The position numbers were made by a program, and so were the translations under genes. A stretch of DNA of 64,000 bases from Tetrapyrgos nigripes. Taxonomy: Eukaryota; Basidiomycota; Agaricomycetes; Agaricales; Campanellaceae. Location of the stretch: the NCBI GenBank assembly GCA_013368315.1, contig JAACJM010000082.1, positions 62,001-126,000 on the forward strand. Reading direction: 5' to 3'. This document shows, piece by piece, positions 17,818 through 56,888 of this stretch (positions are counted from its first letter, which is position 1; the number at the start of each line of letters is the position of its first letter). The notes beneath the pieces are model-generated. The model worked only from the letters and a program-made list of their open reading frames with translations, searched no databases and had not been told where the DNA came from.

Positions 17818-17917
17818 GCCAGAGTGTCCAGAGTGCACCTAATTTGCATGCAGAGTGTGTCTGGAAGGCATGCAAGTCACGTCTGAGGTGCATGCAGGTT
17901 GCATCCAGAGTACACGC
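17818..17917. repeat. Minisatellite A, left remnant
   Basis: Degenerate units of about 22-24 bp rich in GTGCATGCAGGTTGCATCCAG-like sequence. The array stops exactly at the E1 LTR and resumes at 25664 on the other side. Confidence 0.8.
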
Positions 17918-18391
17918 TGTCAAGAACGTTGTCACTCAGCGAAACCACCCAAGTCACACAATGAACAAGATAGATTTGGCGAGTTACAATGAGACGATAT
18001 AGAGAGAATGAGAAAGGCGAGAGAGGAGATCGAGTAGCTGGCTATGCTCGACACTGCACTGTACTAGGAGTGGAGTGGAGACGAAGTGAACAGACTAAGG
18101 AACCTAGCTACGAGATCTATGATATATATAGAGAAGAAGTGAATATGTGAGAATGTCCATGGAGCCTAGGGATTGGAGGAGATAAGAATGTGAGTCAAGT
18201 AAGAAATATGTATGTGAGAATGTCCATGGAGATAAAGGGAATGGAGAAGTGAGTCATAGATCCAAGAGACGATGATGAGAAGTAATCAGTATTTACGGGT
18301 TTATGGAAGGTGATAGAATGATGAACAGAAGTGAATAGACAGTAGAGGGGAATAGAGAGAAAATGGAGGAGACGGGAGGCGATTCATGACA
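17918..18391 (-). repeat. E1 3' LTR
   Basis: 474 bp, paired with 25190-25663. Differences between the two are all transitions, eight of nine at CpG/TpG/CpA positions. The U3 side touches the polypurine tract. Confidence 0.95.
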
Positions 18392-18405
18392 CTACCCCCC
18401 CTTTA
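18392..18405 (-). promoter_or_regulatory. E1 polypurine tract
   Basis: On the minus strand the tract reads AAAGGGGGGTAG directly before the 3' LTR. It would prime plus-strand DNA synthesis. The ORF3 stop codon TAA runs into it. E2 and E3 have the same tract at the same place. Confidence 0.85.
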
Positions 18406-18945
18406 GGTCGAGCTTTCACGGGAGCTCGGAAGCCAACTGACCCACTGCTTTGTCCACTGCTTCCTGATTTCCTTGTTGAGGCCCCGTATAGTCGGCCAAG
18501 TTTCTGGCAAGTCATGGGGAAAGTTACCCCATCCTGTTAGGGCTGACTCACGCCCTTCCCATCCCCCTTCCCATGTGCCCCATCTGTCACTGTTGCCAGT
18601 CGCTGTACCCCACTCGGCAGTGTCGTCAACATTGTCTAAGTGCATAGTCCCTCCCCATGCACTCGCATCCCCCCAACCCAGGTTGTTTCGTTTGTTGAGT
18701 CGTAAGCTAGACCGGTAGGTCATACATCTCGACCGGTGTCCTTCTCCCATCCTACATCGTTTCGATGAGTCCTGTCCTGGCCAGATGCACTGGTTACACC
18801 CGCTGTGTCTTCCCGTGTGCCCTTCGTCTAATCTGCAGCGCCGGCCTGAGCGTTGGCCGTATCTACAGCCTCCGGTGTTGTCCGTCAACGGGTCGATTGT
18901 TGTCGTGGTAGTGGTGGTGACTGTGATAGCGATGGGTGTAGACAT
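18403..18945 (-). CDS. E1 ORF3: conserved Cys/His-rich protein after pol
   Basis: An intact 180-codon ORF lies between the chromodomain end and the 3' LTR, starting 157 bp after the pol stop. The ORF can be extended in frame to 19020, but the start at 18945 (MSTPIAITV) matches the starts in E2 and E3. After a Thr-rich N-terminus, residues 27-74 follow the spacing C-x9-C-x5-H-x3-H-x2-C-x2-C-x10-C-x5-H-x3-C, which suggests two zinc sites. Then comes SLRLNKRNNLGWGDASAWGG, and a Trp-rich C-terminus ending WTKQWVSWLP. No signal peptide or membrane segment is visible, so it does not look like an envelope gene. The stop codon abuts the polypurine tract. E3, with clearly different gag and pol, has the same ORF at the same spot. 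I do not recognise a described family; nucleic-acid or chromatin binding is only a guess. Confidence 0.8.
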   Translation of the reverse strand: MSTPIAITVTTTTTTTIDPLTDNTGGCRYGQRSGRRCRLDEGHTGRHSGCNQCIWPGQDSSKRCRMGEGHRSRCMTYRSSLRLNKRNNLGWGDASAWGGTMHLDNVDDTAEWGTATGNSDRWGTWEGGWEGRESALTGWGNFPHDLPETWPTIRGLNKEIRKQWTKQWVSWLPSSRESST

Positions 18946-19102
18946 GCTGGAGTGTGGTGTGTGGGTAGGGAGGTGTTTTGGTAGGATGTGGTTGAGCTCT
19001 GTTCTGTCGTTTGGGTTCAACGTAGTCGCCTTTTAAGGAGGCCATGTCCGCGGTAGTGTGGAGCGGTTAAGTTCGTACGGTAGATTGTGCCAGTAGACGC
19101 CG

Positions 19103-22100
19103 TTAGTGTCGGTAAGCTTGGGGATGTTTCCGGTGGAATTCTTCGATCATGTCTTTTACCTTGGTCAGGTTTGACGTGGGTACCCAAGTATTTTCCGAGT
19201 CGGGATAGTCCAACCATTTGATGAGGTATTGAGTTCCTTTTCTATTCCTGGTTGGTTTGGAGTCCAGTATCATTTCGACATCGTATTCTTCGTCTGCGTC
19301 TAGTAGTTCCGTGGGAGGCTCGGGGTAGTTTGGTCCGTGGGCATCTGTTTCTATGTACGGCGTTAACAGGGAAGCGTGAAAGATGGGGTGTATTCGCCAG
19401 GTTGTCGGTAATTTCAATTTGTAGTTGACCTGGCTGATTACTTCAATGATCTCGAATGGCCCATGACGACGATTGGACAACTTAGCTTTTGGTCTCGTTG
19501 TCTTCAGGTTTTTTCTGTCGAGTAGCACCCTATCTCCGACTTTGTATCCTGTCCAGGAAATGGAGTGGTTACCATGCTATGCTTTCATCGTTTCGGCAGC
19601 CGACGTCAGGCTTGCTTTGAGTTCATCCCTGAGTTGGTTGAGGTTTTCGAGTCGCTCTTCCACTGTCGGTAAGTTAGAGGTTGGGTTAAATGATGGGAAG
19701 AAACGTGGTTGGTATCCATGTAAGAGTTCGAAGGGGGATTTTCCTGTCGCCGAATGTATCCTGGTGTTATGGCTGAATTCGGCGTATGGTAGATAGTCCA
19801 CCCAGTCTTCTTGTCGATAGTTGCAAAAGATCCGTAAGAACTGTTCCAATTCCTGATTGTATCGCTCCAATTCTCTGTCGGTCTGTGGGTGATAAGCGGT
19901 ACTAAGGGCTGAGGTTATGCCTAGCTTCTCATGGACCGCGGCCATGACCTTGCTAGCGAACTGCGGACCCCAGTCGGATATCATCTTATCCTATAACCCG
20001 TATCGCCGCCAAGTGTTGTTAAGTAGCAGGTTTACTGTCTCGTCACTGTCAGTTGTTTTTGTACACGGCGATATGACGACCGTTTTTGTTGACTTGTCAA
20101 CTGTGATGTGGATTGCGTTGAACCCCTTGCATTCGGGGAGATCCGTGATGAAGTCGGTGGTAATAGTCCCAAACGGATGTTCTGGAATTTCGGTGGGAAT
20201 CAAGGGGATCCGAGCGGGGTGGTTGTTGGTTTTCGTCACCTGGCATTTGGCACAGCCAGTTACGTAGTCTTTGACAAAGACTGACATTCCTGGCCACCAG
20301 AATTCTCTGCTGACTAATTCGTAAGTTTTGTATCGTCCGGGGTGTCCCGCTGCCAGGGAGTCATGGTGTAGTTTTACGATATCCCGTCGGAGGTTGTTGT
20401 CTGCTGGTACATAGATTTTGCCTCGGAACAGGATGATTCCATCTTCGTAATTCCATTCCTGTAGGTTTTTTACCAGCGAACGTGGTCCGTTTCGTAAGAT
20501 GATGTCTAAGGCACTTACTACCTCCAGGTCTCTCTTGGGGCATTCCTTGATTCTCCGTCGTAGTTCTACGTCTCCTATGGCGGTTACCGTTCCTTGCCTA
20601 GTTGCTCGAATTTGAAAGAATTTGGGGTCGAGAAGGATTCTGTCGGTATTGTCATTCTCGGTCCCGATTTTGTGATCTGGTCGTCTAGACAGCGGGTCAG
20701 CTTTATTCAGACTTCCAGGTTTATGTTGGAGGGAGAACTCAAATCGTGTAAGGAACAATGCCCATCGCACCTGTCGCCGACTGAGTTTTTGGGCAGTCTG
20801 GAAATATTCCAAGTTCCGGTGATCGGTGAAGATTTCGATAGAATGGGGGGCTCCCTCCAAATAGTGTCTCCATGCTTCCAGTGCCCGTATGATCACCAAT
20901 AGTTCCTTGTCGTGGATGTCGTAATTCCGTTCAGTCTCTGAGAGGGATTTGGAGATGTAGGCGACTGGGTGCCATCGATTGTCTTCCCCAGTTTGCATAA
21001 GTATTCCCCCCGTTGTGTAGTCTGATGCGTCTACTTCTACTCGGTACGGCTTTGTGTGGTCTGGCATCAGTAGAACGGGTTTGGATGTGAAGGCCGTTTT
21101 GAGGGATTGGAACACTTTTTCGGCCTCTGTTCCCCAGTTCCAGTGGTTATCCTTCCTTGTCAGATCGAAGAGAGGGCGTGCAATTTTCGAAAAGTCTTTG
21201 ATGAAGCGTCTGTAGAAGTTTCCGAATCCTAGGAAGGCCTGAACTTCCTTCACTGTTTTGGGGGTTGGCCATTCAAGCACTCCTTCTACCTTGACTGGGT
21301 CCATTGACAAGGTATCGTGAGAGACAATCAGTCCCAAGAAGTCGACTTTGTCTGCTTCGAATATGCATTTCTCAGGTTTGGCGTATAGGTCGTTGTCCTG
21401 TAGTTGTTGTAGGACTGTTCGGACTAGTTCTCGATGTTCATCTAGGTCACAAGTGAATATTAAAATATCATCCATATAGACGACGATCTTCCCTTGGTCA
21501 ATGAGATCCTTGAAGATAGTGTTCATCATTGCCTGAAAGGTCGCCAGTGAGTTTATTAATCCAAAAAACATGACCGTTGGTTCAAATAGTCCTCGGTTGG
21601 TTTTGAAGGCAGCTTTCCATTCGTCCCCTTCCTTGATACGGATATTATTGTATCCCCACCGTAGGTCGATTTTACTGAACACGTATGCGTTTTTGAGTTT
21701 GTCAATTAGTTCTGGGATGAGGGGTAATGGGTATGCGTTTTTCACAGTGCCCTTATTGAGCGTTCTGTAATCCTGTACTGGGCATAGCTTTCCGTCCTTT
21801 TTCTTAACAAAGAAGAAGGGACTTGCCATTGGGGACTTTGATGGTTTAATATATCCTTTTTCAAGGTTTTCGTTCAAGGAGTCGAGTTCGGATTGTTCAT
21901 TCGGAGAGAGAGGGTATGTTTTACATGTGCGTGGTTGGAAGCCGTCTTGTAGTTCGATCACGTGATCCCAATCACTTCATTGGGGTAGGCGTTCTGAAGT
22001 TTTCTTGTCGAACACCGACAAGTATTCGTGGTATTGTTTGGGTATTTGTTCTTGTAAAGAGGTCGCTGAGTTCGTGGATTCATTTTTAGTGTTTTGCTGC

Positions 22101-23017
22101 GCTTTGGTAAAGGCGGCTCAGATACTCAGCTTGTTTCCTGGCGATTCTTCGTCAGGGTCGGTGGGGGTGTCTAGATATTCCATAATGAGTTCACTCCATT
22201 GCCCCGGGACATTCCATTGTCCAGTCGTATCTTCTGAGGTGAGCATTGCTCCTAAGTTGATCCGTTGTAGTCGGATCTTTCTAGGTCGCTGCGATCGACG
22301 TTGTCCCGCTATCTTGGGTTGCGGCATTGTTTTGTGAGGACCTACGATGTCTTTGAATGTTACGTGGTAGTCTCTGTGATGTGTTCTGGGGTCGACTATT
22401 TCAGGTCCTTTCACTTTTGGAGGGGGAATTTTCGACTTAGCTTTGGGTTGTACTGGGGTCCTTTTTTGTGTACAAGCACTAGGGCATCGCGTTAGGTCGA
22501 TCTCCGATGTTGTCCAGTCGATCTCCAGATTGTGGTGTCGTAACCAATCGGTACCTAAGATGATATCGTGATCCCCGATATCTGTGATGTAAAATTCGGC
22601 AGTTTCTTCATGGTGAGATTGGCGATTCTGGGTGTAGATTCGTAGTTTTTGAACGGTGTAGTGTTTTACCCATCCCATTACGTTTTCTGATCCGTTGACG
22701 TTTCAAACTGGAAATGGTTTCTCTAGGGGAATACGACTGAGATGATGTTTTTGGGCGAAGGCATCATTGATGATGATTCCTTCTGCTCCACTGTCTAGTA
22801 GAGCGGTTGCGTCGATTTTTCGTCCAGTTATTTTCCTGATCAGTTCGGTTTTAAGCTCTATTGATGGGGTCTGTTGATTTCGAGTGATTGCCGTGATTCT
22901 TAATTCAGATAGGGATTGTGGCTTACGAAAGGGTATAGGGCTTGTGTATTGCCTGTGTTTTACTGGTATGTATGTCCATGTCCCTCCTCCTGACGACGTA
23001 GCAGGGGAGGTATTCAA
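19103..23017 (-). pseudogene. E1 pol (protease-RT-RNase H-integrase-chromodomain), interrupted
   Basis: Read in one frame, -1 relative to gag, with in-frame stops at 22703-22705, 22118-22120, 21977-21979, 19991-19993 and 19577-19579. Domains in order are aspartic protease (LLDSGAEGIIIND), reverse transcriptase ([40 protein letters not shown] near 21465), RNase H ([30 protein letters not shown]), integrase (zinc region HHDSLAAGHPGRYKTYELV...CAKC; core TTDFITDLPECKGFN and HPQTDRELERYNQELEQFL) and a C-terminal chromodomain (EYDVEMILDSK, YLIKWLDYPDSENTWVP). The chromodomain places it among chromoviruses. Three of the stops sit where E2 keeps an arginine CGA codon or where CGA is expected. The natural end is TAA at 19103-19105. 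Confidence 0.9.
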
Positions 23018-24648
23018 AAATCCGCTTCTGTTACGAACTTCTTCAGTAGTCCTTCCTTCTCTTCTCCTGATAATGCTCCGATTCTGGTCGTGAGTTCTGA
23101 GATGTTGTCTGTCATAGTGTTGGCCCCGGGGTCCGAGGTTTCTGTGGCGATTGTGGTTTTCTTTATGGATGGTCTCCAGGTCGTATTGTTGGGGGTGGTC
23201 GAAGGCGTATTAGGAAACGTAGGGCAGTCGTTACCCATATGTCCCTGTCCTCGACACCTGAAGCATCGCCCTTCCTTCCTCATCTTTTCCCTTTCTTGGG
23301 GAGTCAGTTTCGGTGGATATTTAGTAATTGAAGATGCACCTGGGACGTTGTCTTGAAAAGCGTTTACTTCCATGCTTCTTGTTCGACCAATTCTTGTACT
23401 CTGTGACCCCCTTCCTGACTGTCCTTCCTCCCTTCGAGGTTTACTCCATGAGTTTTTTTCCTCCTGCCTTTCTAACCAAATCATGTGTTGTTTTACTGCT
23501 GCCTTCTGTAGTGCCGCGAGGTTTCTAGGCTGAGTGGGTAGGTAGGAGATCCGGTCTACCAGTCCTCGGGGGAGTCCCTTTCAATACCATTTCATTAACG
23601 CCTTGTCATTATAGCCAGTATCGTCAGCGTATTGTTTGAATTGGGAGTTGTACTTATCTATATCCGTCAGGGCTCCCTCCATTTTGATGTGCTCTATTTT
23701 GGTTTGGGCTAGGGTTTCTCGAGCTGCGGGTTTGAAATCTCACAGAAACTCTCGTTTTACTTCGTATAGAGTCCAGAGTTTTTTCGTTTTCGGTTTCGAA
23801 GCAGAGGAATCCTCGTCGGTACTCGTATATTCTTTGTCACTATCACTAAAATCGTCTTCTTCTTCGAAGACCTTCTTCATCATACTGCGCGCCCATCGTT
23901 TTGCTTCATCTCCTGAGAACAGTGTGAGGAAGAATGATATCTTCTCATCTTCGGTAGGATAGATTTGATCGTTGAGCCGGAGGTAGTTGTTAAATTCAGC
24001 CATCCAATCCTTTGTTTGGTTTCGGTCTCCTGTGAACTTTTCTGGCTTCACTCCTCGTTCCTTGTTAGTCATATTAGGAAAGACCGAGGACTGAGCGTCC
24101 TGAGCCTCGTCGTCAGGTGGTGCGGCGTCTCGGGGAGCTTGGGTTCCTCCCGCAGCAGTGGTGGCCAAGGCAGGGTTTTCAGACATTCTGAGAGCGGCGT
24201 GAATGGAGTGGAAGTCGATTGGGAGTGTGGGATTGATTGAGATGGGTTCTTGGGCCGCACTGGGAGTACTGTCTGTTGGGGATCTGTTGTGAGGGGAATG
24301 GGGTTCTGAGGAATGTTCGTGAGAAGGAGTTGGTGACGGGGTTGTGACAGGATTTGGGTTTTCTGTGGTTGGTTCTGATGGTAGTGATTCGAAGAGTGAG
24401 ACTGGTTCGATACCGACTGCCTGTTCTTCAATTGAAAGGGGTCGGTTGTTTATGGAAAGTCGATTGGGACACGGATGGGTTGTACAGAGCTCCCACCAGT
24501 TTTGGTGTGAGAAGTAACAATCTTGTTGTCTTTGGGGAACGTGTGCATGAGGTCGTCTGAGACAAACGATTACGGGGGAGGAAACACGGCTAGGATTTTG
24601 TGAGGCTGTGCGTGATCTAGTGGTTCTTGGAATTCCACTTTCGCTCAT
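23014..24648 (-). pseudogene. E1 gag, interrupted
   Basis: Structural polyprotein frame. It begins at the ATG of 24648, whose ATGA overlaps the stop of the leader ORF. Residues 44-60 hold C-x3-H-x6-C-x4-C-P (DCYFSH...WWELCTTHPCP). A Pro/Ser/Thr-rich stretch follows, then a second methionine (MSENPALATT, 24186) and the retrotransposon gag core (ERGVKPEKFTGDRNQTKDWM, LFSGDEAKRWA). Near the end is a CCHC knuckle, CFRCRGQGHMGNDC. In-frame TGA stops lie at 23740-23742 and 23581-23583; the second is CGA in E2. It ends GAT TTT TGA, where the pol frame opens at -1. Confidence 0.85.
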
Positions 24649-25181
24649 TCACTTGTTTCGGGATCCGGAAATAAAAGATCCCACTGTTCTCCTGAGACGT
24701 CTTCCCAAGAGGTCAGTGATCTATAATAGCTGATTATCCTAGGGATTCGGGTTTGAAGATATTCGTGGTATTCCTCTTGGCTGAACTCGAAGATGTCGCT
24801 ATCTTCGTAGTCGGCGTGACTGAACCAATATGGGAGGGTCGTCTCTCCTAGTTGAATGAGGTAACACGTATCTGCAATTGCAACGTAGCGTGGAGAGGTG
24901 TTTTCAGGTGATATCTTTATTCGGAGGTATTCGGAGATGGTCACTTCACCTGGGTTCCACGATCTCTTGTTGAGTATGATCCAGTAGTCGTCGAGTGCGA
25001 TAGCGTGCTCGTATACTGTTGTTTCGAGTTCTTCTCGGTAGTTTACGAAGTACTTTGATTTTTCGATAGAGAAGAGATAGCATGGTGGAGGTCAGGTCCG
25101 TAAGTTGTCAATAAGGGGTTCGAAGTTAAGAGCCAGTGTGTTTTATCGAGGGTCTGTTTGTGAGGTGGGTGTAAGAGAGTC
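24645..25181 (-). pseudogene. E1 leader ORF upstream of gag
   Basis: An open stretch between the 5' LTR and gag, with no ATG in its frame. It is conserved with E2 (27552-28100): EYLRIKISPENTSPRYV and LPYWFSHADYEDS are nearly identical in both. In E1 it is broken by TGA at 25092-25094, where E2 has CGA. It ends in TGA overlapping the gag ATG (ATGA). The product is not recognised. Confidence 0.6.
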
Positions 25182-25189
25182 TGTTCAAG

Positions 25190-25663
25190 TGTCAAGAACG
25201 TTGTCACTCAGCGAAACCACCCAAGTCACACAATGAACAAGATAGATTCGGCGAGTTACAATGAGACGATATAGAGAGAATGAGAAAGGCGAGAGAGGAG
25301 ATCGAGTAGCTGGCTATGCTCGACACTGCACTGTACTAGGAGCGGAGTGGAGACAAAGTGAACAGACTAAGGAACCTAGCTACGAGATCTACGATATATA
25401 TAGAGAAGAAGTGAATATGTGAGAATGTCCATGGAGCCTAGGGATCGGAGGAGATAAGAATGTGAGTCAAGTAAGAAATATGTACGTGAGAATGTCCATG
25501 GAGATAAAGGGAACGGAGAAGTGAGTCATAGATCCAAGAGACAATGATGAGAAGTAATCAGTATTTACGGGTTTATGGAAGGTGATAGAATGATGAACAG
25601 AAGTGAATAGACAGTAGAGGGGAATAGAGAGAAAATGAAGGAGACGGGAGGCGATTCATGACA
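25190..25663 (-). repeat. E1 5' LTR
   Basis: 474 bp, paired with 17918-18391. On the element strand it begins TGTCATGAATCGCC and ends CGTTCTTGACA, followed by CTTGAACAGACTC, which is identical after the E2 5' LTR and should include the primer-binding region. No match to a common tRNA 3' end is obvious, so the priming mode is open. Confidence 0.95.
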
Positions 25664-25935
25664 CACGCAGGTTGCATCCAGAGTGCACCCAGTTTGCATC
25701 CAGAGTGCATGCAAGTTCTGTCTGTGGTGCATGCAGGTTGCATCCAGAGTGCACCCAGTTTGCATGCATGCAAGTTGCATCTGGGGTGCATGCAGGTTGC
25801 ATCCAGAGTGTGTCCAGAGTGTGCACAAGTTGTGTCTGGGGTATGTGCAGGTTGTGTCCAGAGTGCACCCAATTTGTGCACAGAGTGCATCTAGAGGGTG
25901 TACAAGTTGCATCTGAGGTGTGTGCAGGTTGCATC
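25664..25935. repeat. Minisatellite A, right part
   Basis: About 270 bp of degenerate 22-24-bp units, with TGCAGGTTGCATCCAGAGTG recurring four or more times in full or varied form. It is continuous with 17818-17917 once E1 and one CACGC are removed. ORFs seen across it in several frames are repeat artefacts. Confidence 0.85.
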
Positions 25936-26920
25936 CCTGTATTACCCATGTAATCCAACTTGTCTTACAGCAGTCTTACAGCATTGCTCTGAAAAATTCT
26001 TCTCTCTGTAATACATCTGTAATACAAGGTGGATTACTTATTGAATGACTCGTTGTAAGGTCACTGTAATACCTCTGTATGGCAGATGATTTACAGGAAT
26101 TTGCCTCCAATGTCCTTTTTCCTACTACATCGCCAGTTTTCTCCAACTGCCAATTCATTTCAGAAGGCTTCCACCAGTGCTACTGATAGTTCTCATGGTG
26201 TCACCACTCATGCCACCACTTGGTCAAGAGCATTGATACCTCTTCTCAAGAGAACCTCAAACACTGGGTGCAAATTAGCATAAATCCTCTGCTTTATGGG
26301 AATATTATGAAGGATTTATTTTGAACCACTCAATCAGTAAGTCAGCAGGTCATACAGTAGTATTACTGAAATGAACTTTCAGTGTGACATCTTATCACAA
26401 TAAAACATACTGTAATACATTTTGGTGTGACTTAATAATACAAGATAGAATTACAGGAGACTTTCAGTGTGACACAAAGTCACAGTATGTTAAGCAGTAA
26501 TACTGCAAGGATATACAGAGGATTTACAATGACATGGAAATTGTAACATTCTGAAAAGCAACAGTGATTTGTAGTGTATTAACAATAGATTTACAGTATG
26601 ACTTTAAGGTCATGGTAATACACCAGTAATGTAACTTGTATTACTGGGGAATTACTGGAAAGCACACTGAAATTGAGTGCAAGTAATTCCTATAACAAGA
26701 GTATTATAGTGTGACAAGAAGGTCCCTGTAATACATAGTAGAAAAAGATTCAATAATTCTCCTGTAAATCAGGAAAATTTACAGGTGATTTAAAAAAGAA
26801 GGATGGCATGTTTGACACAGAGCAAAGAATAGTAGTTTGGATTTGGGATGTGAAAACAGACTGGAATCATTCAGTGAGGGGATAGGTTCAATAATTGCAA
26901 ATAAAGGGTCAGAAAAACAA
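25936..26920. other. Non-coding stretch rich in CTGTAATAC/TTACAG motifs
   Basis: The motif CTGTAATAC or its variants (CAGTAATAC, TTTACAGG, GTAATACAC) recurs more than ten times, in both orientations. Such clustering resembles sub-terminal transposase-binding repeats of non-autonomous DNA transposons, but I found no terminal inverted repeats. No protein-coding region is supported. Confidence 0.4.
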
Positions 26921-32700: not shown

Positions 32701-33571
32701 TAACTTCAGCCCTCAGTACCGCCTACCACCCACAGACTGACGGAGAGTCGGAGCGATACAACCAAGAACTAGAACAGTTCCTACGCATCTTCTGTAACTA
32801 CCAACAAGAAGACTGGGTAGACTATCTACCTTATGCCGAGTTTAGTCATAATACTAGAATCCATTCAGCAACAGGAAAATCCCCATTCGAACTCCTACAC
32901 AGATACCAACCACGTTTCTTCCCATCATTCAATCCAACCTCTAATCTACCAACGGTAGAGAAACGACTCGAAAACCTCGCCCAACTCAGGGATGAACTCA
33001 AAGCAAGCCTGACGTCAGCAGCCGAAACAATGAAGACACACAGCATGGAAACCCTTCCATATCCTGGACAGGGTACAAGGTCGGGGATAAAGTACTACTT
33101 GACGGGAAAAACCTAATGACAACAAGACCCAAAGCTAAGTTGTCCGATTGTCGTCATGGCCCATTCGAAATCATTGAAGTAATTAGCCAGGTCAATTACA
33201 AGCTGAAATTACCAACGACCTGGCGTATACACCCTGTGTTCCACACATCCCTACTAACGCCATACGTTGAAACGGACGCTCACGGACCAAACTACCCTGA
33301 ACCCCCCACGGAGCTACTAGATGTGGACGAAGAATATGATGTCAAAATGATACTAGACTCGAAACTGACCAGAAACAGGAAAGGGACTCAGTACCTCATC
33401 AAATGGTTGGATTACCCCGACTCAGAGAATACTTGGATACCTACGTCAAACCTGACCAAGGTAAAAGACATGATCGAAGAATTTCATCAGAAACATCCCC
33501 GGCGTCTACTGTCACAACCTAACAGACGGCGATTTGGCTGCCTTCCACTACCACAAACAAGAACTCGTTAA
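29698..33571 (+). pseudogene. E2 pol, broken
   Basis: It opens in the -1 frame at the gag stop. Domains match E1: protease (LLDSGAEGIIIND), reverse transcriptase ([23 protein letters not shown] near 31219), RNase H, integrase (HHDSLAAGHPGRYKTYELV, HPQTDGESERYNQELEQF) and chromodomain (YLIKWLDYPDSENTW). Breaks include a 1-bp deletion near 29709, TGA at 29832-29834, a 7-bp deletion near 31285 that shifts RT, and TGA at 31726, 31909, 32229 and 32610. At 29832, 31909 and 32229 E1 keeps CGA. A short deletion removes the normal pol stop, so the frame runs on to 33571. Confidence 0.88.
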
Positions 33572-33657: not shown

Positions 33658-34153
33658 ATGACCACACCCATTGCCATCACAGTCTCAACTCATACCACAA
33701 CGACGATCGACCCACTATCAGACAACACTGGACGCTGCAGATACGGCCTACAGTCAGGCCGGTGTTGTAGATTAAACAACAGACACAAATCAATGCATCT
33801 GGCCAGGACGTGAGTCATCGAAACAATGCAGATTAGGGGCAGGACACCGGGCAAGATACACTACCTACCGATCTAGCCTCCGACCAAATGAGCAGAATAA
33901 CTTAGGATGGGGAGATGCGAGCATATGGGGAGGAAGCACTCAATTAAACTATGTCAACAACAACAACGGATGGGGTACATGGGAAGGAACAGGATGGGGG
34001 GAACGTGAGCCAGACCTAACAGGATGGGGCACCTTTTCCAACGACTTACTGGAAACTTGGCCGACTATACATGGTTTGGACAAAAGGATCAGGAAGCAGT
34101 GGACGAAGCAGTGGACCAATCAGCTTCCGAGCTCCAGTGAAAGCTCAACCTAG
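33658..34153 (+). pseudogene. E2 ORF3 remnant
   Basis: It starts ATG (MTTPIAITV) at the position of the E1 ORF3 start and keeps the first Cys motif (GRCRYG...CCRL). It then loses bases and shifts frame. The last codons (QWTNQLPSSSESST, then TAG at 34151-34153) align with the E1 C-terminus and again end directly at the polypurine tract. Confidence 0.7.
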
Positions 34154-34164: not shown

Positions 34165-34636
34165 TGTCATGAATCACCTCTCGCCTCCTTCATTTCTTCT
34201 TCATTTCCTTCTATTACCTATTCACTTCCGTTCTATCACTTTCCATAAACCCATAAACACTAATTACTTCTCATCATCGTCCATCCCGATCTATGACTCA
34301 CTTCTCCATCCCCTTTATCTCCATGGACATTCTCACACATATACTTCTTTACTTGACTCATATTCTTATCTCCTCCAATCCCTAGGCTTCATGGACATTC
34401 TCACATATTCATTTCTCTCTTATATATATCGTAGATCTCGTAGCTAGATTCCTTAGTCTGTTCACTTCGTCTCCACTCCGCTCCTAGTACAGTGCAGTGT
34501 CGAGCATAGTCAGCTACTCGTTCTTCTCTTGTCTTCATTATCTCTCTACATCTCTCTCATCCCCCATATCCTGTCAATCTATCTTGTTCATTGTGTGACT
34601 TGGGTGGTTAATTGCTAACTGACAACGTTCTTGACA
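34165..34636 (+). repeat. E2 3' LTR
   Basis: 472 bp, paired with 27075-27546, ending CGTTCTTGACA before the ACAAC target duplication. Confidence 0.95.
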
Positions 34637-36000
34637 ACAACACCTCCATGAAGTGTGGATTCCTTGTGTATGAATGCATTCTAGATGCATTCCAGGTGCA
34701 CGACATCTCTGTGAAGTTTGGATTCCTTGTGCATGAATGCATTCTAGGTGCATTCCAGGAGTGTGGATTCCTGGTTCGTGAATGGATTCTAGGTGCATTC
34801 CAGATGCACAACACCTGGTGCATGAATGCATTCTATGTGCATCCTAGGTGCATTCCAGATGCACAACAGCTCCACGAAGTGTGGATTCCTTGTGCACGAC
34901 ACCTTAACAAAGTGGGGATTCCTGGTTCATGAGTGCATTCTAGGTGCATTCCAGGTGCACGACACCTCCACAAAGTGTGGATTCCTTGTGCATAAATGCA
35001 TTGTGGGTGTATTTTGTGTGTGAATGAATTCCAAGTGTATTCCAGGTGCACGACACCTCCACAAAGTGTGGATTCCTTTTTCAGGTGCATGACAACTCCA
35101 TGAAGTGTGGATTCCTGGTTTGTGAATGCATTCTAGGTGAATTTCAGGTGCACGAGACCTCTATGAAGTGTGGATTCCTTGTGTGTGAATGGATTCTAGA
35201 TGCATTCCAGGTGCATGACAGCTCCATGAAGTGTGGATTCCTGGTTCAGAAATGCATTCTAGGTGCATTCCAGATGCATGACACCTCTGCAAAGTGTAGA
35301 TTCCATGTGTGTGAATGCATTCTAGGTGCATTCTAGGTGCACAACACCTTCATGAAGTGTGGATTCCTGGTTCAGGAATGCATTCCACATGCATTCCAGA
35401 TGCACAACACCTCCACAAAGTGAGGATTCCTTGTGTGTGAATGCATTGGAGGTGTATTCATGAAGTGGCATTCCAGGTGCACAACACCTCCACAAAATGT
35501 GGATTCCAGGTGCAGGACACCTCCACAAAGTGTGGATTCCTTGTGCATGAATGCATTCTAGGTGCATTCCAGGTGCACAACATCTCCACAAAGTGTGGAT
35601 TCCTACATGCATTCAAGATGCACAACACCTCCACAAAGTGAGGATTCCTTGTGTGTGAACGCATTCGAGGTGTATTCCAGAAGTGGCATTCCAGGTGCAC
35701 AACACTTCCACGAAATGTGGATTCCAGATGCAGGACACCTCTCTGGATTCCTAGGTGAATTCCTGAAGTGTGGATTCCTAGATCATGAATGCATTCTAGG
35801 TGCATTCCAGGTGCACGACACCTCCACAAAGTGTGGATTCCTTGTTGCATTCTAGGTGCACAATACCTCCACAAAGTGTGGATTTCTTGTTGCATTCTAG
35901 ATGCACACAAAGTGTGGATTCCTTGTGCTGAGAATGCATTCACAGACAAGGAATCCACACTTCATGGAGGTGTCATGCACCTGGAATGCACCTAGAATGT
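34637..36000. repeat. Minisatellite B, main array
   Basis: About 1.36 kb of a degenerate repeat of roughly 63 bp. Each unit reads approximately GTGTGGATTCCTTGTG, GAATGCATTCTAGGTG, CATTCCAGGTGCACGACACC, TCCACAAA. Units vary in length by loss of blocks. The last unit (about 35935-36000) is in the opposite orientation, giving an inverted end. Apparent ORFs on both strands arise from the repeat period and are not genes. Confidence 0.9.
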
Positions 36001-42133: not shown

Positions 42134-42288
42134 CAAGCAACAGCGTCTGCGGTCACCAGCCGCTTGCGGGCAACGCACTGGGCGACACGTCAGCACTAAC
42201 TATGTCTATAAAAGCAAGCCATCCCAGAACAAGAAAAACAGAGTTCAATCACATTCTACCAAGCCAACGATCACTCTTACCCACCACT

Positions 42289-42779
42289 ATGTCTACTGCT
42301 ACCACTGCCCCCACTACACAAAACTCATTGGTCGCTCAACCAACCAACAAAGGACGATGCACATATGCACGACGCTCAGACCGACAATGCCGACTGGCCA
42401 AAAACCACCAAGGGCTGCATGACGGTTGCAAACGCTGCACATGGAGAGGAGAGGACAACACGAACAGCCGATGTATACTAGGAGTCGGGCATGGAGCTAG
42501 ATGTGTCGTGCATCAGACGTCTCTCCGAGCAGAGCACAGAGGGAATCTTGGATGGGGCACCAGCACAGTATGGGGATTGAGGATAATGATGATGGATGGA
42601 ATGCACCAGGTTGGGGAGCTGCAGCCAACGTCACCAGATGGTGGTCTCCAGACCCGCGGCCAAACTTGCCCGACTACTGGCCAGGGCAACGGGGGTTGGA
42701 CACTCAAATCCGCAATCAATAGAAGAGACAGTGGACCGAGTGGCTTCCAAAAGTATTCATCGAGGACGATGAAGTTTAG
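42289..42779 (+). pseudogene. E3 ORF3: Cys/His-rich protein, one frameshift
   Basis: It starts [13 protein letters not shown], 155 bp after the pol stop. The Cys/His block has the spacing C-x9-C-x5-H-x3-H-x2-C-x2-C-x11-C-x5-H-x3-C (begins [15 protein letters not shown], ends HGARC). SLRAEHRGNLGWG follows, as in E1. A frameshift near 42580 moves the remainder to the next frame, which reads GWNAPGWGAAANVTRWW, then IRNQ, TAG, KRQWTEWLP and a final TAG at 42777-42779 touching the polypurine tract. Homology to E1 ORF3 is clear at both ends. The gene is damaged in this copy. Confidence 0.75.
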
Positions 42780-51080: not shown

Positions 51081-52275
51081 TGCCTCTGCTGCTCATCACT
51101 CAAGGAGGATTAGCCACAACGTGGGCCGAAGCCCAAATACATTCTGCAGATTGAGTAGCACTAATACAGATGTACTGACTATGTGTTTAACTTAAGTACA
51201 TAAGAACAGTGGGAGAGGAGGGTGGGTGCCAAAAAATGCATCCTACTGGCTGGATCTACAAGAGAGATCCAAAGGGGAGTGTTAGTACAGCTGTAGAGCG
51301 ATGTAACTGCGTTGATAACACACTGGGAGCGAGATATCCAACCCACAAACACACTAGGACAGAGTAGTGAAGTGTGTGGCTGATATCTCTACGCTCTAGG
51401 AGTGTTAGCAACGCTTAAACAGACTGTAGAAGCGAAGCTTACCAGCTACAGTGTACACAGAGTGAGCTACAAGGGAGCTGTGCACTGTACTGTGACTGCA
51501 GACTGGAGTGGCAGTGGTTAGAACAGTCTAAACCACCAAAAAGCGCACTAGATGTCCTCACCAAACTTGCTTTCTTGTGGGGAAGAGGTAGGAGATGAGG
51601 GGAGAAAGCAAGCAGCAATCAGATCATCAAAACTTCGCCCATCAACAGGCCTCTGCTCACACATGTGGCACCTCCTGATGGATTTATCAGATCTGATGAC
51701 TGGGTGAGATCTAGCCTGGACCAGGGCAGACTGGATCACAGGAAGCGCAGGAAGCGGAGAGAATGCACCAGATGCAGTCTGGACACTTGGATATAAAAGG
51801 TATGTGAAAGGGAAAGCAGAATGGAGTAAAGTCATGAAAGGAGATAACTGATCAAAAGAGATCTGTAACTTAAAGTGAACATTGCGAAGGCAGATATTAA
51901 CCGATTTGGCCAAAAATGAAACGGGAGATGGATAATAACGTACGAAAGGCTTTGTAGAAGTAGTAGGTCAAACGGGTAAGTATAGCGATCGCGATGCACA
52001 ACTGTACACTAAAAGTCTCAACTCAAAGAGTTAGAACTTTTAAGAAAACATGTATGTAGATGCACCATATGGAGGTGTATGGACCCCCAGCGCTGTTGAA
52101 GGGTTGGGGGCAATGTAAACAATGTTATTTGAACAGGAGAAGCGTACGGTACAAGTAGGAAATGAACAGTGAAGAAATCAAAGATGAAGTGCAATTGGCA
52201 AAAGGAGAACATTAGCAATAACTTGGAGATGTGGTCTCCAAGTTATTGCTAGTTATCTGGTTGTGTGCAGAGGCC
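51081..52275. repeat. Dispersed repeat X, copy 1
   Basis: About 1.2 kb, nearly identical to 55717-56888. It begins TGCCTCTGCTGCTCATCACTC and ends near GTGTGCAGAGGC, so GCCTCTGC/GCAGAGGC may be short inverted ends. It contains AAAGGGGAGTGTTAGTACAG, GGATATAAAAGGTATG (TATA-like, near 51790) and a 16-bp perfect palindrome near its end (AGCAATAACTTGGAGA and its complement around a 5-base loop, 52210-52246). A minus-strand ORF of 121 codons (51548-51913) is broken in copy 2 by a 22-bp deletion. The repeat class is not settled. Confidence 0.8.
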
Positions 52276-52729
52276 TTGGAATCTGCATTCATGTCGAGCA
52301 TAGAGGTGGCCAAAGTGGTCACCATTCAATAGTGTACTAGTGCAAGCTGGAGTGACTTGAAGTTGGAGGCAGGCATGCTGCCAAGCTTGAATGCATGTTG
52401 AACTGTTGGATTAGAGGAAGAGCTCACTATCACCAAATCTAAACATAGGATCAAAAGCAAGGTGTGCAATATCAATATATATCAGGGTTCACAGGCCACT
52501 GGGCCAAATCAAAGGAGTGTGTATGTATATATGTATTCTGAGATAGTACTGCTAGAGCTTGAGAATCACCAGTCCCAGAGGTATTATCTGGGCCAGGGCA
52601 TTCCATAGCTTGAGGGCCAGCAGAGACATCTATCCTCATGACATCACCTATGACCACCTTTCACATTAACCACCGACATGTCTTTGCTGCCTCACAAACC
52701 CTAAAAATGACACATGAGGTGCATGATAA

Positions 52730-53030
52730 TGTACAAAAGGTTGTGTAGAAGTAGCAGGTCAAACAACTAAAGTTCTTAATTCAAAGAGTTAGAGGGGGTA
52801 TGAACCCCCAGCACTGTTGAAGGCTTGGAGGCAATGTGAACAATGATATCTGAATGGGAGAAATGTATGATACCAGTAGAAAATGAACAGTGAATAAATC
52901 AGAGATGAAGTGCAATTAAGCAAAATAAGAACATTAGCAATAACTTCTGCTCATCACTCGAGGAGAATTAGCCACAACACAGGCCAAAGCCCAAATACAT
53001 TTTGCAGATCAAGTAGCACTATGCTAATGA
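52730..53030. repeat. Dispersed repeat X, diverged permuted fragment
   Basis: Bases 52730-52948 match the 3' part of repeat X (GTAGAAGTAG(C/T)AGGTCAAAC, CCCCAGC(A/G)CTGTTGAAG, GAACATTAGCAATAACTT). Bases 52948-53030 then match its 5' start (CTGCTCATCACTC, TTAGCCACAAC, CCCAAATACATT). The 3' part therefore joins directly to a 5' part. Confidence 0.7.
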
Positions 53031-55716
53031 ATGCTGTTGAGAAGAGGAAGGAACCTACCATCCTTTGAGATGCCTCTACTGTTAGTCTAACTCTTTTGGT
53101 GACTGACTTGGGGTACGAAGGCGATGAGTGGGAGTTGATGGACAAACCTTTGTGACATTTGTGATGTCTATTTTAGAATGACATGAGAGTGCACTTGCTA
53201 AATCAGGCTATCCAGCAATTAGTGGTCAAAAAACGAAGCAGTGGTTTGGCAGCTCTGTGATAGTAGAGGTTTATTTCTTCCTTTCCTCCCAACCACCACC
53301 ACAGGTAAGACTTTTTTTCCTTTGCATTTGGAACCTCTGGAGGTCTGTGTTTTTTTTTTCTGTCATAATGGTTGGTGCACTTCAGATTACTGCTGGCCAC
53401 ACAATATATCTTTAATAAATCTTTGCTGTTCCTTTGAGCTTGAGTTGAGTATGTAAAATTCTGTACTATTGGATTGAAACAATCATGGGGAATGGTAACT
53501 ATAGGGCAATGTAAAAGCTAGTAAAACAAAGTTGGAAACTTGACATTGTTACAGGCCCTTATGTGGCTAGAATACCTGTGCACAGTGAGCTGGGCCACTG
53601 CAGTTGGGACAAGACTGGGCTGTTAGCTACCTCAGTGTTCAAGTTAAATGTTTATTGTTTAGTGTAGTCTAAACACAAAGAGGGACAATGACTGACCAGA
53701 ATGGACTCCAAGTCACATGTTTGGGATGACAATGTCTCAAAAGTCAAACATGCTTAATCTCATTGTCTTGTCTCCAAGGATGCTTGGACCATTTTATCTT
53801 CTTACATTTTCTTTTTCTTGATTCATCACTTATTATTCTTTGTTATTTTTTTTTTTTTGATTTCAAAAATAATGCTGACTTCAATGATAGTTTTCTTCAC
53901 ATGGCACATAGAAAGATGGTAAGTTCACTCTTTCAAGTCCATTACAGTAGTACTAGTATGAGTAGTTACTTCTTTATTGTCAGTGTAAAAGTACAGTAAA
54001 AGGTCCTGGAAATCACTGTCGCTGGATGGTAAATGCCTGATGTATGAACACATCACTATGGGCCTTCTGTTGGCAGTCTCTGGAGTGCTGTGAAAAAAGG
54101 GATACTGCCAGTGTCAGTAGAAGGTCAAACTCAGGTGGATATTTGATGTACATAGTCTCTCTAGAGTGTGAAAAAAGAAATACTTCTGCCAGTGCTGGGA
54201 GAAGGTTGAAATTGGGTGGATGTTTGATGTTATAATCTTTTGTCATCTTTCTTCACATTCACTGATATTTTTTTATTGATACACTCTACTCATTTCTTGA
54301 TTACCCTAGGGTTCCAGTGGGTGTTTCCTGTGAGTTTTTAGTTCTAGTCTTTATATGTTTATTCTGACAATAGCAACAGCAAAGAGGCATCCCAGAAGGA
54401 AAAATGTCAGTATAGATTCCTTCACTTCTCCAGGAAAAAAAACTATGACAAACATAACCTCTATCCAAAGCAGCCTGTTACTGCTTTCTACCTCAGTAAG
54501 TTGAGATCTTTGTGTTGATGCATTTTTTACTCCTCTAATAATTCAATTGCAGGCAATGAAGCCACTCTGACCAGAGTAGTCCCTGCTGATGATTGTTCAC
54601 CATTCAAATGTCCTTGTGATGACCCAGGTCACCTCTGTTTTGATGTCTTGGTCCTTTTGGCAATCTTAGCAGAAGAGCGATGGTCCTCTTCTGCTATGGG
54701 CCTAAAAAGGCTGAATGATGGCCCTGATCCCAATTGTGGGAAGGGGAAAAGCACTGGTGGCACTAAAAGCTGAGCAGGCAGAGAGTATGGAAGAAGTAAA
54801 TGACCAGGAGATGGATGCTGTTAAAAGAATACAGTTGGTTCTGATGAGGAGAATGTTGTTAATCTCCAGCTTTATCTAAAGGGAAAGAAAAGGCAGAAAA
54901 TGATGGTGAGGACATAGAGGAGAAGGTGGGGAGGAAGTCATTGGAGACGATGGTTGCAGAGATGATTGTGGTGAGGAAGTCAGTGGAGACAAAGACAGGA
55001 AAGAAGACAAGGACTGGGAGAAAGTTGAGAAGCACAAAGAAGGGGAGGACTGGAATGCGGAGCAAGACAGGGACAAGGAGATGCAGAATACTATTTATCT
55101 CTTGCATAAACTAGCTTTTACTCCAGCTTCATCTAAAGGGAAGGAAAAGGCTATTAAAACTTTGCAATGTCATTGGGGTCATTGCAGAAAGGATCCTACA
55201 GAACAGCTTCCTCAAAAATATGATTCTCTATGGGGACAAGCAGCTGACACCATGACTGTATTCAGGAAATACATTCAGGTAGAGTCCTTCAAACCAATGC
55301 ACCAGTCTTTGCTCAAGTTGGGCTCCAAAATGTGGAAGACCATCCCAGATTCTCCCAAAATTGTAATATTGGTTACATGATATAATCAAAGTGAGGGAAT
55401 TACTCACTTCTGAAGAGCAGGCAAATACTGCCACTGTGCCAATGGGTTTGCGTCAGCAATAGTTATATCCTCCCTCACAAAGTATCATTGATGTCATGGC
55501 AAGGGTAGGGCCTCACCAATGACAGGTATCGGGGAGAAAAACTGCTTATCCTACTGGATACATATTCCCTTGAATACCTGATACATGCCACTCAAGAAGG
55601 GTGGACTATGCCAGAGTTAGACTCCAAAAATATATCTCTAGTAAGTATTTGTGCATTTGAAAAATAGATTTCAATGCTAATCATTATTTGTTATAGGTGG
55701 GAAGCCATGGCTATCA
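53031..55716. other. Repeat-derived DNA, no recognised gene
   Basis: Short ORFs only. A frame near 54540-54690 (CPCDDPGHLCFDVLVLL) and one at 55081-55380 (FRKYIQVESFKPMHQSLLKL) look like old coding scraps, but I do not recognise them. Confidence 0.4.
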
Positions 55717-56888
55717 TGCCTCTGCTGCTCATCACTCAAGGAGGATTAGCCACAACACGGGCTGATGCCCAAATACATTCTGCAGATTGAGTAGCACTAA
55801 ATACAGATGTACTGACTATGTGTTTAAAGTACATAAGAATAGTGGGAGAGGAGGGTGGGTGCCAAAAAAAGCGTCCTACTGGCTGGATCTACAAGAGAGA
55901 TCCAAAGGGGAGTGTTAGTACAGCTGTAGAGCGATGTAACTGCGTTGATAACGCACTGGGAGCGAGATATCCAACCCACAAACACACTAGGACAGAGTAG
56001 TGAAGTGTGTGGCTGATATCTGTACGCTCTAGGAGTGTTAGCAACGCTTAAACAGACTGTAGAAGCGAAGCTTACCAGCTACAGTGTACACAGAGTGAGC
56101 TACAAGGGAGCTGTGCACTGTACTGTGACTGCAGACTGGAGTGGCAGTGGTTAGAACAGTCTAAACCACCAAAAAGCGCAATAGATGTTCTCACCAAACT
56201 TGCTTTCTTGTGGGGAAGAGGTAGGAGATGAAGAGAGAAAGCAAGCAGCAATCAGATCATCAAAACTTTGCCCATCAACAGGCCTCTGCTCACACATGTG
56301 GCACCTGCTGATGGGTGAGATCTAGCCTGGACCAGGGCAGACTGGGTCACAGGAAGCGCAGGAAGCGGAGAGAATGCACCAGATGCAGTCTGGACACTTG
56401 GATATAAAAGGTATGTGAAAGGGAAAGCAGAATGGAGTAAAGTCATGAAAGGAGATAACTGATCAAAAGAGATCTGTAACTTAAAGTGAACATTGCGAAG
56501 GCAGATATTAACCGATTTGGCCAAACATGAAAGAGGAGATAGATAATAACGTACGAAAGGCTTTGTAGAAGTAGTAGGTCAAACGGGTAAGTATAGCGAT
56601 CGCAATGCACAAGTGTACACTAAAAGTCTCAACTCAAAGAGTTAGAACTTTTAAGAAAACATGTATGTAGATGCACCATATGGAGGTGTATGGACCCCCA
56701 GCGCTGTTGAAGGGTTGGGGGCAATGTAAACAATGCTATTTGAACAGGAGAAGCGTATGATACAAGTAGGAAATGAACAGTGAAGAAATCAAGGATGAAG
56801 TGCAATTTGGCAGAAGGAGAACATTAGCAATAACTTGGTGGTCTCCAAGTCATTGCTAGTTATCTGGCTGTATGCAGAGGCCTTCAAA
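55717..56888. repeat. Dispersed repeat X, copy 2
   Basis: Second near-identical copy of 51081-52275 in the same orientation. The main differences are a 22-bp deletion near 56312 (CTGATG microhomology at the break) and a shortened palindrome (AGCAATAACTTGGTGGTC). After the repeat the text CTTGGAATC(C)GCATTCATGTCGA is shared with copy 1. Confidence 0.8.

Follow-up and report, generated by a model that had tools for sequence, protein, structure and literature searches.

A third gene with tandem Cys/His fingers and a WG/GW tail, behind a putative promoter of its own, in chromodomain retrotransposons of Tetrapyrgos nigripes

Where LTR retrotransposons have a third gene, it is usually either env-like or unexplained. 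In a 64,000-nucleotide stretch of the Tetrapyrgos nigripes genome (the window), three elements, E1, E2 and E3, carry an open reading frame or its remains (ORF3) between the chromodomain and the 3' LTR, which raises the question of whether this is a gene and what it would do for the element. E1 occupies 17918..25664 on the minus strand. Its LTRs (17918-18392 and 25190-25664) are 98.1% identical to each other (98.7% for the pair of E2, 97.3% for that of E3), and CACGC stands on both sides of the element, which we read as a 5-bp target site duplication. The Pfam domains of its pol follow the gypsy order (RVT_1, RT_RNaseH, Integrase_H2C2, SH3_Tf2-1 and a C-terminal Chromo). By domain order as well as by the paired LTRs with their duplication, E1 is a Ty3/gypsy chromovirus. 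Also on the minus strand, its pol ends at 19103..19528 with SH3_Tf2-1 (PF24626), the chromodomain (PF00385) and a TAA stop. At the stop lies a 16-nt box (19088..19103, one mismatch), a candidate upstream element of an ORF3 promoter, followed by a TATA-like box, TTAAAAG (19030..19036, -91 from the ATG), of a putative internal promoter, and by a block resembling a start site and 5'UTR, which begins with ACAGA and is conserved between copies (18980..19007). ORF3 was present where an earlier note on this DNA had placed it (18403..18945, 180 aa plus stop), filling the gap between pol and the polypurine tract; the tract (18393..18403) separates its stop from the 3' LTR. From its sequence, ORF3 is composed of a tandem Cys/His finger block at residues 27-74 (18724..18867) and an acidic WG/GW repeat tail at about residues 88-140 (18526..18684).

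The earlier note had described the frame in all three elements, and this stood for E1, where it is open, and for E2, where a broken remnant was recognised (33658..34153, plus strand), but in E3 (42289..42779, plus strand; locus L031) the copy in the window is not intact, with a frameshift after NLGWGTSTVWG. The rest of the layout agreed with what had been claimed: ORF3 starts 157 bp after the pol stop in E1 and 155 bp after it in E3, and its stop codon, read from the sequence, touches the polypurine tract in all three elements (TAA in E1, TAG in E2 and E3). On the plus strand, E2 and E3 have their own copies of the 16-nt box (33499..33514, one mismatch, and 42140..42155, three mismatches, respectively), and E3 has a TATA box, TATAAAAG (42207..42214), 31 nt before ACAGA. 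As had been proposed, the protein is not env-like, since the highest 19-residue Kyte-Doolittle mean among 52 copies of at least 160 aa was 0.78, with none above the 1.6 of a membrane span. The gag and pol of E1 are present in the window as six fragments; the openness of ORF3 beside them was rejected as standalone evidence because ORF3 is short, and the real support comes from the set of genomic copies.

The earlier note had made its case depend on homologues beyond this locus and on dN/dS away from 1. Genome searches with the E1 ORF3 (best 150 of 521 candidates) and the E3 ORF3 (best 150 of 470) found relatives at no fewer than 227 distinct places in T. nigripes (at least 77 E1-type places from the first query and at least 150 from the second). 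An ORF3 match lay 142-290 bp downstream of the chromodomain in 62 out of 65 E1-type chromodomain matches (the first 65 of the best 150); two of the other three have ORF3 (C133 and C302), and C163 has none among the matches listed. The proposed Cys/His spacing, C-x9-C-x5-H-x3-H-x2-C-x2-C-x10/11-C-x5-H-x3-C, was intact in 66 of the 69 genomic copies with ORF3 open for at least 100 aa, when x9-x11 was allowed in the sixth gap. As ratios of sums by dS class, dN/dS was well below 1 throughout: 0.13-0.22 for 26 E1-type copies, a set in which dN is biased downward because the copies were ranked by protein similarity, 0.21-0.26 for 19 G2 copies and 0.27 for the only E3-type pair (frameshifted L031, L032, L034, L075, L083 and L085 and copies shorter than 160 aa were excluded). 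Above dS 0.1 the finger block had values of 0.09-0.17 (the small number of closest pairs gave 0.29 and 0.38) and the tail, in E1 and G2, had values of 0.18-0.33 (two close pairs gave 0.54 and the E3 pair 0.43). The N-terminus of the G2 proteins was weakly constrained (0.35-0.67, and 1.49 in five close pairs). With the spacer as a control for the ranking bias and L020 left out, the excess of third-position differences in 29 E1-type copies was 5.99-fold in pol and 3.15-fold in ORF3, against 0.76 and 1.02 in the two parts of the spacer. By these comparisons ORF3 is almost certainly a real accessory gene under selection, and they support the earlier interpretation of a conserved, non-env-like third gene after pol.

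No relative of ORF3 was found outside the T. nigripes genome among 5.8 billion predicted proteins; the only match, P0002, is from this same genome and is therefore not an outside relative. The annotated protein P0002 (D9758_002048, contig C10) combines the tail of an ORF3 with a Tc1-like transposase domain, either as a gene model drawn over two elements or as a real fusion. The Pfam search gave no match below E 0.1 (weak matches to DUF3716, E 0.92 in 1/19, and to two other weak families were set aside), the NCBIfam search gave none, and PDB sequences gave none up to E 10. The earlier note knew of no retroelement family with this protein, and our searches bear this out; nor did any Pfam or NCBIfam profile name ORF3 as an integrase tail or a host gene fragment, an outcome it had allowed for. 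We found no description of the gene in the literature within our reach, most subscription papers lying beyond it, nor in the available text of a fungal LTR survey (PMC3248453).

The finger block comprises two tandem units, C-x9/10-C-x5-H-x3-H/C, that resemble a duplication: when the other residues were shuffled 2000 times, the observed score was reached by 0-18 shuffles in 4 out of 5 copies and by 311 in the E3-type L033. Residues 1-100 have a net charge of +4 to +11 and residues 100-160 one of -9 to -2 in 44 of the 45 copies, the exception being the frameshifted L031 (+2). The C-x9-C-x5-H-x3-H pattern presumably resembles that of small Cys/His proteins of actinobacterial phages; the matches of ORF3 to PHROGs profiles were weak (best E 0.019, 3 of 19 members). 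An AlphaFold2 model of the E1 protein, based on three sequences, was uninformative (mean pLDDT 33). The basic tandem fingers are predicted to hold zinc and probably bind nucleic acid. Their target may be the 16-nt box itself, so that the gene would regulate itself, although we consider this step somewhat doubtful. The box lies at the pol stop or closely behind it; of 77 loci, 69 have it with 0-2 mismatches and five with 3-4, and in three none was found; the LTRs of E1, E2 and E3 do not contain it (best 6-8 mismatches).

The tail brings the number of WG/GW dipeptides to 4-11 per ORF3 copy (45 copies), which in some G2 copies is only mildly above chance (as many as 38 of 500 shuffles have at least the observed count). 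Among the 115 stop-to-stop reading frames of at least 100 aa in the window, only the ORF3s of E1 and E2 reach 8 WG/GW per 100 aa. The tail Trp and their adjacent Gly were conserved at 0.985 and 0.947, respectively, against 0.755 for the other tail columns (0 of 10000 permutations), and a second set gave 0.853 and 0.948 against 0.673 (9 of 10000). The tail therefore shows what defines an Argonaute hook at the sequence level, namely several WG/GW dipeptides conserved above their surroundings. Such motifs bind AGO1 in the viral suppressor SPMMV P1, and the Trp is needed for binding and suppression, according to the available text of PMC2904775; in that text P1 shares with ORF3 the several WG/GW motifs in one protein, but it belongs to a plant RNA virus, and the ORF3 tail is called a hook from its sequence. 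The host has parts of an RNAi machinery, with at least 21 PIWI-domain matches on 10 contigs and two Dicer-dimer matches in the genome. We suggest that the acidic, mostly disordered tail most likely hooks Argonaute and thereby titrates or blocks the silencing of the element by its host, an assignment that we make tentatively and at somewhat less than an even chance. If the tail does bind Argonaute, ORF3 would be a retrotransposon-borne silencing antagonist.

The best of the alternatives, which we still find rather unlikely, is that ORF3 is a transactivator whose fingers bind element DNA and whose tail, acidic and rich in Trp, serves for activation, in the manner of foamy virus Tas with its internal promoter. 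The division into basic residues 1-100 and acidic residues 100-160 would suit it, as would a conserved box upstream of the gene's own TATA, and WG/GW repeats in such a tail are equally compatible with an activation domain. A group of chromodomain relatives at 80-87% identity bears on this reading from both sides. Three of them (L089-L091) carry an ORF3 whose fingers lack one Cys, while L092 and others have an ORF3 without the finger block that keeps its WG repeats; at least 59 fingerless matched stretches occur in the genome, and this type also had no match in the set of 5.8 billion proteins. In one lineage, 6 out of 6 copies lack both the fingers and an intact box and keep the repeats: all six loci show 4-7 mismatches to the box, versus 0-1 in 3 out of 3 for the finger-bearing L089-L091 (random 150-nt stretches have a best of 5-9). 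That the box has decayed where the fingers are missing suggests, for this single lineage, that the two are linked, as a transactivator would have it. Yet a protein with WG repeats is retained at the same six loci, where third positions show an excess of 2.21 and the first 115 codons contain 3-8 WG/GW dipeptides, and this counts against a transactivator. So does the conserved Gly beside Trp, which an acidic-aromatic domain would not need, and as the LTRs of the three window elements lack the box, there is no support for their activation through it. The transactivator and Argonaute-hook readings could both be true.

On the reading that we prefer, ORF3 would be an accessory regulatory gene whose portable unit sits behind pol and ahead of the polypurine tract, and the E3 family, which occurs with and without a promoter and ORF3 unit of about 0.6 kb, bears on its portability. 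In L099 and L100 of this family, the pol stop is followed directly by TTCATCGAGGACGATGAAG and then by the polypurine tract and the LTR, and the distance from a pol-end marker to TTCATCGAGGACGATGAAG is 44 nt; measured in five copies that have the unit, it is 622-705 nt. This resident sequence before the tract, which directly follows pol in unit-less copies, also encodes the last residues of E3-type ORF3 (IEDDEV, stop; 42756..42779, plus strand, in E3). We compared 64 of the best 150 integrase matches (shorter or more distant ones dropped) with 46 of the best 150 ORF3 matches and found an ORF3 match downstream in 7 out of 52 integrase matches at 79% identity or more and in 0 out of 12 at 65-77%; the remaining ORF3 matches of the E3 query, compared with the integrase set by eye, gave no further match. 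The distant copy L101, from the 65-77% class, has no unit either, and the sequence behind its pol stop is almost the same, so that absence looks ancestral in the family. Over the integrase end and chromodomain, identity is 73% for E1-G2, 47% for E3-G2 and 40% for E1-E3 (10/13 copies), whereas over the ORF3 finger region it is highest for E3-G2 (70%), followed by E1-G2 (55%) and E1-E3 (49%). Given the presence and absence of the unit, the unit-less outgroup and these conflicting relationships, the E3 family probably captured the unit from another chromovirus family, a G2-like element being the donor on the simplest reading; its loss from most E3-family copies is less likely. The unit-less majority in this family (7 out of 52 with the unit) also weighs against ORF3 as a second nucleocapsid- or particle-associated protein that would aid packaging or reverse transcription, with the Trp-rich end mediating assembly. 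The Cys/His block, the basic character and the Gag zinc knuckle that the host chromovirus also has speak for such a protein, but the spacing is unlike that of the C-x2-C-x4-H-x4-C knuckle, there was no zf-CCHC match in Pfam, the fingerless lineage persists and nucleocapsid is normally made from gag RNA, so we regard it as quite improbable.

The unit would supply its own Pol II promoter, formed by the 16-nt box, the TATA box and the start block. In 62 out of 77 loci there is a TATA-like motif 75-105 nt upstream of the ATG, where shuffles average 0.28 loci and reach at most 2 (50 rounds). After TATAAAAG, the ACAGA-like block follows at exactly 31 nt in 24 out of 36 loci and at 30-32 nt in 28, and is absent in five. 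In E1-type copies the box is TTAAAAG, which is not a canonical TATA, and ACAGA stands 29 and 34 nt further on in many copies. The fingerless loci have a TATA-like box 36-39 nt before a conserved ATG in 4 out of 6 cases (it was not found in L097 and L098), so near that a spacing of 31 nt, if it applies there, would leave a leader only a few nt long. We rejected a coding extension upstream of the ATG (TE[LF]NHILP), since the copies do not preserve its frame and its codon positions carry no signal. The conserved spacer is probably an internal promoter of ORF3, in which case the protein would be translated from a short mRNA of its own and not from the gag-pol RNA. Env-like third ORFs are usually spliced and the ACAG could serve as an acceptor, but an ORF3 mRNA spliced from the LTR transcript at this block, with no internal promoter, is very unlikely, because splicing would not require the 30-32 nt spacing from TATAAAAG to the block, which is kept in 28 out of 36 loci although the distance to the ATG varies.

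The WG/GW tail that persists without fingers, the promoter-like spacer and the E3 family with and without the unit had been missed in the earlier reading. With these included, the reading that we prefer for the whole, at a little under an even chance, is a self-promoted accessory regulator that probably acts against silencing through an Argonaute hook. A wider version, in which the unit (own promoter, self-regulating fingers, Argonaute-hook tail) is a self-contained anti-silencing device spreading between distant retrotransposon families of one genome, as a counterpart of the CaMV 19S/P6 unit, we consider unlikely. In CaMV, the 19S promoter with its TATA box, in a 106-bp spacer, drives P6/TAV behind the RT gene, and P6 interferes with antiviral silencing (available text of PMC5902531). 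The likeness, as far as that text goes, lies in a regulatory gene that follows the RT gene and has a promoter of its own, here putative, in the spacer; P6, however, is also a translation transactivator, and Pfam and PDB sequence searches found no homology to ORF3. The internal promoter of foamy viruses drives the accessory regulators Tas and Bet, Tas being a DNA-binding transactivator (available text of PMC8670036), and the shared feature there is a second promoter, in our case putative, inside a retroelement for an accessory regulator. Foamy viruses differ in that their promoter lies in env, which the ORF3 elements lack, and the same searches found no homology. In bdelloid rotifers, LTR retrotransposons have diverse third ORFs that are shared as modules among unrelated retroelements; unlike ORF3, these are env-like, GDSL esterases or DEDDy exonucleases, none with fingers and WG repeats in the part of the description available (PMC5408684). 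Plant Retand elements carry extra TRP28 ORFs between pol and the 3' LTR, possibly DNA-binding and regulatory; in the available text (PMC11963269) they share the position of ORF3 but are antisense, lie in a non-chromovirus and encode another domain. Should the ORF3 tail bind Argonaute, this would show that such genes can pass between families as promoter-gene units, as in pararetroviruses. This one genome offers natural comparisons: some families have the unit and others lack it, one lineage is fingerless, the box decays where the fingers are missing, and selection can be measured on hundreds of copies.

Some minor observations concern the copies and their surroundings. Five ORF3 fragments, each on a different contig (C3, C22, C58, C168 and C172), have equal score, identity and length (75%, residues 1-127) and are perhaps part of a larger, recently spread repeat. 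The premature stops of decayed copies are, by impression, mostly TGA, as expected from C-to-T changes at CGA codons (methylation or RIP-like mutation). In the window, a tandem array with 63-bp spacing (34564-35842) adjoins E2, and related repeats flank E1 (17829-17920 and 25668-25950), so E1 and E2 may occupy the same repeat type. Finally, 51081-56836 contains direct repeats about 98% identical and 4.6 kb apart (51194-51493 with 55827-56126; 51701-52000 with 56312-56611), perhaps the LTRs of another element.
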